DNA of 37,847 nucleotides from Candidatus Woesearchaeota archaeon (lineage in GTDB: Archaea > Nanobdellota > Nanobdellia > Woesearchaeales > UBA10216). The notes below the pieces were generated by a model that saw nothing but the letters and a program-made list of their open reading frames with translations, was not told where the DNA came from and did not search any database. The translations under genes and the position numbers were made by a program. Below are positions 21,736 through 22,180 of this stretch, piece after piece. Numbering within the stretch: position 1 is the first letter of the stretch; each line of letters begins with the position of its first letter. The DNA lies in NCBI GenBank assembly GCA_016192945.1, contig JACPTE010000016.1:1-37847 (forward strand), given 5' to 3'.

Positions 21736-21972
21736 ACTCATACTACTAAAGGTTACGCAAATGGAACAAGGCAAATACGCATCAAGGAAGCAAAGAAGTA
21801 TAATGAAAGAATTGACAGAGAAAATGAGCTTTGGGATGAAATTATAGATTTAGAGCAAGAAGTTTCTCAAAAAAGGATTGAGATATGTCAAAAACCACCT
21901 GTCAGAGACCGGTTGCATGCTAATGTTAGTGGTTTTGATTGTCATGTGGTTCCCAAATCACGTAAAGCGTGA
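21736..21972 (+). pseudogene. Start-less ORF fragment with charged helical composition
   Basis: Open frame reads THTTKGYANGTRQIRIKEAKKYNERIDRENELWDEIIDLEQEVSQKRIEICQKPPVRDRLHANVSGFDCHVVPKSRKA-stop; no in-frame ATG at the 5' end; runs into the hairpin array. Confidence 0.3.
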
Positions 21973-22129
21973 TTGGGCCCAATTGAGCTTTGCTCAATTT
22001 GGGTTTGTCGCTCAGAATTCCACTCACCGGTGGTATTTTGAGCACACAGATTCCACTTCGACCACTCATCAAAGATGAGTGGAATTCTGTTGTTTAAAAA
22101 AATGAAAATCCCAATCGCCGCAAGCGGCG
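21888..22129. repeat. Array of nested hairpins / inverted repeats (possible structured RNA or mobile-element end)
   Basis: TCAAAAACCAC/GTGGTTTTGA (21888/21938); CCCAAATCACG-TAAAG-CGTGATTGGG (21952-21977); CCCAATTGAGC-TTT-GCTCAATTTGGG (21978-22003); CAGAATTCCACTCA (22013-22026) with TGAGTGGAATTCTG (22076-22089); CCACTCATC-AAA-GATGAGTGG (22062-22082); CGCCG-CAAG-CGGCG (22116-22129). Confidence 0.8.
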
Positions 22130-22180
22130 GGGTATCAGACCCAGCAACAAATAAAGTGCGCTAATCAATCATGCAGCAGC

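Follow-up and report, generated by a model that had tools for sequence, protein, structure and literature searches.

What produced the dense cluster of inverted repeats between two genes in this Woesearchaeota contig? The window, by which we mean the whole stretch of 37,847 nucleotides analysed here, has a mean of 0.26 starts of 8-base inverted repeats per 242-bp stretch, against 11 in the 242 bp from 21888 to 22129. A preliminary description of this region had listed several nested hairpins. All of them were found in place when the sequence was re-checked (Table 1), and the 14-bp pair and the 22062-22082 hairpin have GAGTGG (22077-22082) in common, so that the two pairings are indeed mutually exclusive. 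We find that the hairpins, rather than forming one design, are the remnants of three mobile elements. The stretch 21887-22152 is very probably a conglomerate of three non-autonomous elements, here called alpha, beta and M3.

Table 1 Features of the hairpin array (positions are those of the window)
Feature	Position	Strand	Basis
Alpha: transposase-less, of PATE type, hairpin near each end, split by M3	21887..22095	+	related copies
M3: two single-bulge hairpins, inverted relative to each other (52 bp), that split alpha between GTGGTT and TTTGTC	21952..22003		homologous copies; fold z = -6.1
Single-bulge hairpins	21952-21977 and 21978-22003		coordinates confirmed
Palindrome ATTGGGCCCAAT	21972-21983		coordinates confirmed
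Right part of alpha: 14-bp outer pair excluding the end hairpin	22013..22089	+	coordinates; alpha copies from other genomes arranged likewise
Perfect 14-bp pair	22013-22026/22076-22089		coordinates confirmed
Hairpin CCACTCATC-AAA-GATGAGTGG	22062-22082		coordinates confirmed
AAAT bordering beta on the left and found again at its right border (22149-22152); presumably the target or cleavage site	22100..22103	+	
Beta: 49-bp terminal-only remnant, left end fused to right end ACCCAGCAACAAAT at shared GGCGGGGTATCAG	22104..22152	+	matches longer copies
GC hairpin (left end of beta)	22116-22129		coordinates confirmed

Folding and coding content of the array

As a single strand, 21886-22155 folds at -52.6 kcal/mol, compared with -31.3 (SD 3.6) for shuffled sequences (z = -5.97; none of 200 was as good). 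Folded by part, M3 alone gave z = -6.1 and 22011-22091 gave -4.5, the beta remnant only -2.4 and the first 66 bases -1.2. The array had been taken to end at 22129, which is too early: the structure reaches 22152 because the beta remnant continues past that point, and on the left alpha begins at 21887. It was correctly described as unexplained by any coding region, the sole open reading frame across it (66 aa, TTG start, 21878-22078) being without a Pfam match. The adjoining genes encode an AAA ATPase and a product without a Pfam match, and scans for Rfam families and tRNAs gave no match in the array.

Dispersed copies in the host genome

The host genome (G000) comprises 1.07 Mb in 41 contigs and is about 92% complete. 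Searching it with 21850-22180 gave 17 matches, the query included, which group into blocks. Far from there being no second copy, a case the preliminary description had allowed for, copies are many, and each of the three blocks is found again in this genome and in those of relatives.

Beta has seven longer copies in the host genome, of 119-190 bp and one of them cut at its left end (contig and position C22:6105, C22:17937, C9:8490, C20:16018, C37:788, C38:9631 and C5:2012). They read AAAT-GAAAATCCCAAT-[CGCCGCAAGCGGCG]-GGGTATCAG ... TTGGGATTTTCA ... GTTGCTGGG ... [CCGCCCCAAGGGGCGG]-GGTATCAGACCCAGCAAC-AAAT. The window copy is identical to them at 42 of 42 bases in its left part and also matches at its right terminus, but beyond GGCGGGGTATCAG its left part passes straight into the right part. 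This 13-mer is present in both the left and the right parts of complete copies, and the window copy is therefore best explained by a deletion that removed the core from between the end hairpins and would have fused the ends of an element of ~135 bp. Single-hairpin forms of this kind, with the left end running straight into the right end, seem to recur in other archaea (L050, L068, L104 and L111).

AAAT or AAT stands at both borders of the complete beta copies and at most copies outside the host genome. It may represent the target together with a terminal cleavage site, or a 4-bp target duplication; the latter would point away from the IS200/IS605 family, whose elements make no target duplication (PMC7290912). 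One copy can be compared with its empty site. On contig C37 (L006, 788-970) beta with an M3 inside it lies exactly between the genes of ribosomal proteins L13 and S9, the start codon of S9 abutting the right end of beta. The gap between the genes is 175 bp there, whereas 19 relatives have the two genes overlapping or no more than 23 bp apart, and this uninterrupted arrangement is the empty site for the C37 copy. For the window locus an empty site was sought through the neighbouring 188-aa gene, and none was found, there being no usable relative. In five of the eight beta copies (L014, L015, L018, L019 and L020) the right end abuts the ATG of an open reading frame of 136-500 aa. One of the five is the copy inside the L13-S9 operon, so that insertion into an operon can leave every gene intact. 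The copies that end at an ATG look as if AAATG were a favoured target.

Alpha is about 157 bp long without M3. Its related copies in the host genome are at C41:75706 and C24:3701, its end hairpin occurs in 14 of the 59 genomes searched (host included), and the layout without M3 is seen in L211, L218 and L228. We infer the exact ends of alpha from these copies rather than from an empty site.

Transposases between ends of the same design

The preliminary description had proposed, among other origins, an IS200/IS605-like or MITE-like end, and had suggested looking for TnpA and TnpB in relatives. This proposal is supported: in other genomes the same ends flank intact TnpA genes. For beta, a scan of the genome contigs with the pattern CCCARYCGCNGCAAGCNGCGGGGTAT, in which both partner bases of one stem position were left free, found at least 117 stretches. 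The matches listed come from Woesearchaeota, Pacearchaeota, Aenigmatarchaeota, Micrarchaeota, Methanothrix, Methanoperedens, Moranbacteria, Neomarinimicrobiota, Cyanobacteria and others. Among these, 106 distinct matches have A:T, C:G or T:A at the free position in 105 cases and G:T in one, and thus it is the hairpin itself that has been kept. Intact TnpA reading frames lie between two beta-type ends in Synechocystis salina (L129), Methanoperedens (L153) and a woesearchaeote (L102), and in two loci from the window's own order (L167, L168) TnpA lies between ends of the beta design with a different stem. The beta-flanked TnpAs tested match PF01797 and NF033573 in profile searches. The TnpAs of these five loci form one clade with support of 99/98, to which that of L171, a locus without clear ends, also belongs. 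The near identity of the beta end hairpin in archaea and bacteria fits a TnpA clade that crossed between the domains.

Alpha-type hairpins, including the right terminus GGTGGAATTCTG, are found on both sides of a TnpA in a genome of the same family (G008, L189). The two kinds of end flank two different TnpAs; alpha and beta thus carry the termini of two distinct IS200/IS605 elements but none of the genes. TnpB genes are also flanked on both sides by beta-type ends, in two genomes of the window's family (L192, G009:C3; L190, G016:C28).

No TnpA was found within the array or next to it; the host genome, about 92% complete, has two TnpA genes, on contigs C40 and C36 (L181, L182). These were considered as partners and dropped: they fall outside both the beta and the alpha clades, and their flanking hairpins are of the CTGCG..CGCAG type. 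A TnpB partner for alpha was likewise discarded, as the TnpBs of G009 and G016 have beta-type ends instead and no match to a TnpB domain was found in the host genome at about 92% completeness; the same result speaks against an omega-RNA relic, another origin that had been put forward. A literature search on insertion sequences of Woesearchaeota, whose coverage excluded most subscription journals, found nothing relevant.

Comparison with PATEs and a proposed history

Similar piles of elements have been described in the salt-loving archaeon Haloquadratum. The PATEs (palindrome-associated transposable elements) of Haloquadratum walsbyi have IS605-like ends, with a stated asymmetry in the distance from hairpin to border, and 52-bp terminal-only forms arise among them by repeat-mediated deletion; small mobile repeats, SMR-A, invade their palindromes without target duplication (PMC3119063). 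Target duplication aside, on which the AAAT borders can be read either way, alpha and beta appear on comparison of their sequences to share the described features. Complete copies of both have a hairpin near each end, with the window beta as the fused, single-hairpin form; the end palindromes are related to IS605-type ends; alpha and beta (49 bp in the window) are too short for a transposase and have no coding match; terminal-only forms of ~50 bp result from deletion between end palindromes; and the elements are often invaded by other small ones. The asymmetry is also the same: in the tnpA sense, the beta hairpin is separated from the left border by about 18 nt and from the right one by 12 nt. 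They differ from PATEs in belonging to another lineage with unrelated sequence, in the length of complete elements (only about 135-190 bp) and in the long palindromes that enclose the end hairpins. In their end hairpins and in border spacing they also resemble IS200/IS605 elements themselves, whereas the window copies have no tnpA of their own and no room for one. Our high confidence in the conglomerate as a whole extends to alpha and beta as probable PATE-type derivatives of two different IS200/IS605 elements.

We infer the following history. The near-terminal hairpins of alpha and beta, folded in single-stranded DNA, would be bound by a Y1 (HUH) TnpA acting in trans, which would cut beside AAAT or AAT in the case of beta and transfer the element in single-stranded form. 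The small mobile repeat M3 would have entered alpha without duplicating any target. Later, recombination between the end hairpins of the beta copy would have removed its core, so that 49 bp are left. By now the region most likely consists of inert debris, and a function for the host is not needed to explain it. A puzzling hairpin cluster can in this way be explained as layered mobile-element debris, and the comparison suggests that conglomerates of PATEs and small repeats, known from haloarchaea, also occur in tiny genomes of the Woesearchaeota type.

The M3 double hairpin

Homologous 45-bp forms of M3 interrupt the beta copies on C37 and C38 at the points that read CAATG^TTGCTGGG or CAAAG^TTGCTGGG in uninterrupted copies. 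These insertions are exact, with no added bases outside M3; for the M3 within alpha, L007 and other alpha copies served for the comparison in place of an empty site. Among 288 genomes of the order the exact M3 pattern occurs only in the host (three copies), G003 (one) and G014 (one), and the reversed pattern gave no match in the same set. The five copies are 45-54 bp long and all have the inverted terminal repeats CCCAAAT/ATTTGGG or variants of them. The feet CCCAA/TTGGG are present in each of the ten half-hairpins, as is a single unpaired purine, always in the same position (nine times A, once G). Of the 5 positions inside the feet, 4.7 are paired when both arms come from one half-hairpin and 2.8 when they come from different copies; since some copies are related to each other (the window with G003, C37 with C38), the counts are not independent. 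The window copy lies inside the outer stem of alpha, those on C37 and C38 between the halves of beta, the G003 copy in another palindromic stretch and the G014 copy in none that we could see. TT stands directly beside one border in all five copies (window, L006, L005, L185 and L265), a weak regularity since these represent four insertions at most.

M3 resembles SMR-A in having inverted terminal repeats, no gene and no visible target duplication, and in that three of its five copies are within PATE-type elements. It differs in its make-up, two hairpins that have fixed feet and an unpaired purine but variable stems, and in size and number, SMR-A being about 110 bp with up to tens of copies and M3 having only three copies in the host genome. 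Because it is shorter and rarer, we call M3 SMR-like rather than SMR-A. It is conceivable, though we think it improbable, that M3 represents a novel type of minimal mobile element, of which only the fixed foot and the unpaired purine would be recognised while the stem is free to change, and which would enter PATE-type elements without target duplication, moved by a novel enzyme. We also consider it improbable that M3 is not mobile at all and that the double hairpins are fold-back (template-switch) mutations inside elements rich in inverted repeats. Fold-back would account for stem sequences that vary between copies, for the small number of copies and for the lack of any enzyme linked to M3, but errors of this type would not preserve a foot, whereas the ten half-hairpins share both feet and purine in several unrelated contexts and the insertions in beta are exact.

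REP-type repeats and competing folds

If M3 is compared instead with REP/BIME (REPIN) sequences, the inverted pair of imperfect hairpins is a common feature, and REP stems too need a bulge (PMC8266576). It is nevertheless quite unlikely that the short elements are REP- or REPIN-type repeats whose mobility depends on a domesticated REP-associated TnpA and not on one of the IS200/IS605 kind. The GTAG tag is absent beside the hairpins, copies are few and no REP-type TnpA is linked to them; the flanked TnpAs fit the IS200/IS605 model, the beta clade passing its cut-off, and fall below that for REP transposases; and alpha and beta have the paired ends of elements.

The overlapping pairings had first suggested an attenuator or switch, and a structured non-coding RNA had also been considered. 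In the long palindromes, bases are shared with the end hairpins and the folds are therefore mutually exclusive, a property known from IS605 ends in Halanaerobium, for which competing end structures have been reported (PMC7290912). We looked at this in 12 beta-type elements, most from different genomes, which were picked by hand after the outer stems had been seen, because an automatic search for two-hairpin elements was too strict for the right ends of the host genome; the statistics are thus descriptive. In 11 of the 12, an internal stretch pairs with the right terminus (at most 2 of 500 shuffles as good), with differing stem sequences, and the left outer stem is supported in six. Strong folding, truly exclusive pairings and outer stems kept with different sequences speak for a regulatory RNA controlling a neighbouring gene. 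We regard this as very improbable all the same, and have dropped the switch: the overlapping pairings belong to the ends of dispersed elements, whose copies in the host genome adjoin unrelated genes with no fixed gene downstream, parts of the array are found separately elsewhere, the ends match those of transposase-bearing elements, and the Rfam scan gave nothing. Integron attC sites were also considered; by eye, the R box did not fit. The beta hairpin motif can be used to annotate other remnants that otherwise resemble regulatory RNAs.

Nested elements in other genomes

Elements similar to alpha are also seen in nested arrangements elsewhere. In a nanohalarchaeote an alpha-like element has split an IS200 tnpA (L078, 6880-7410), and in an aenigmatarchaeote an alpha-like element lies inside a beta-like one (L160, about 1397-1700), of which L054 is an uninterrupted copy. 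The middle of the alpha-like elements L214, L226 and L196 (G010, G012) is filled by short hairpins with conserved feet and unrelated stems, much as in M3.
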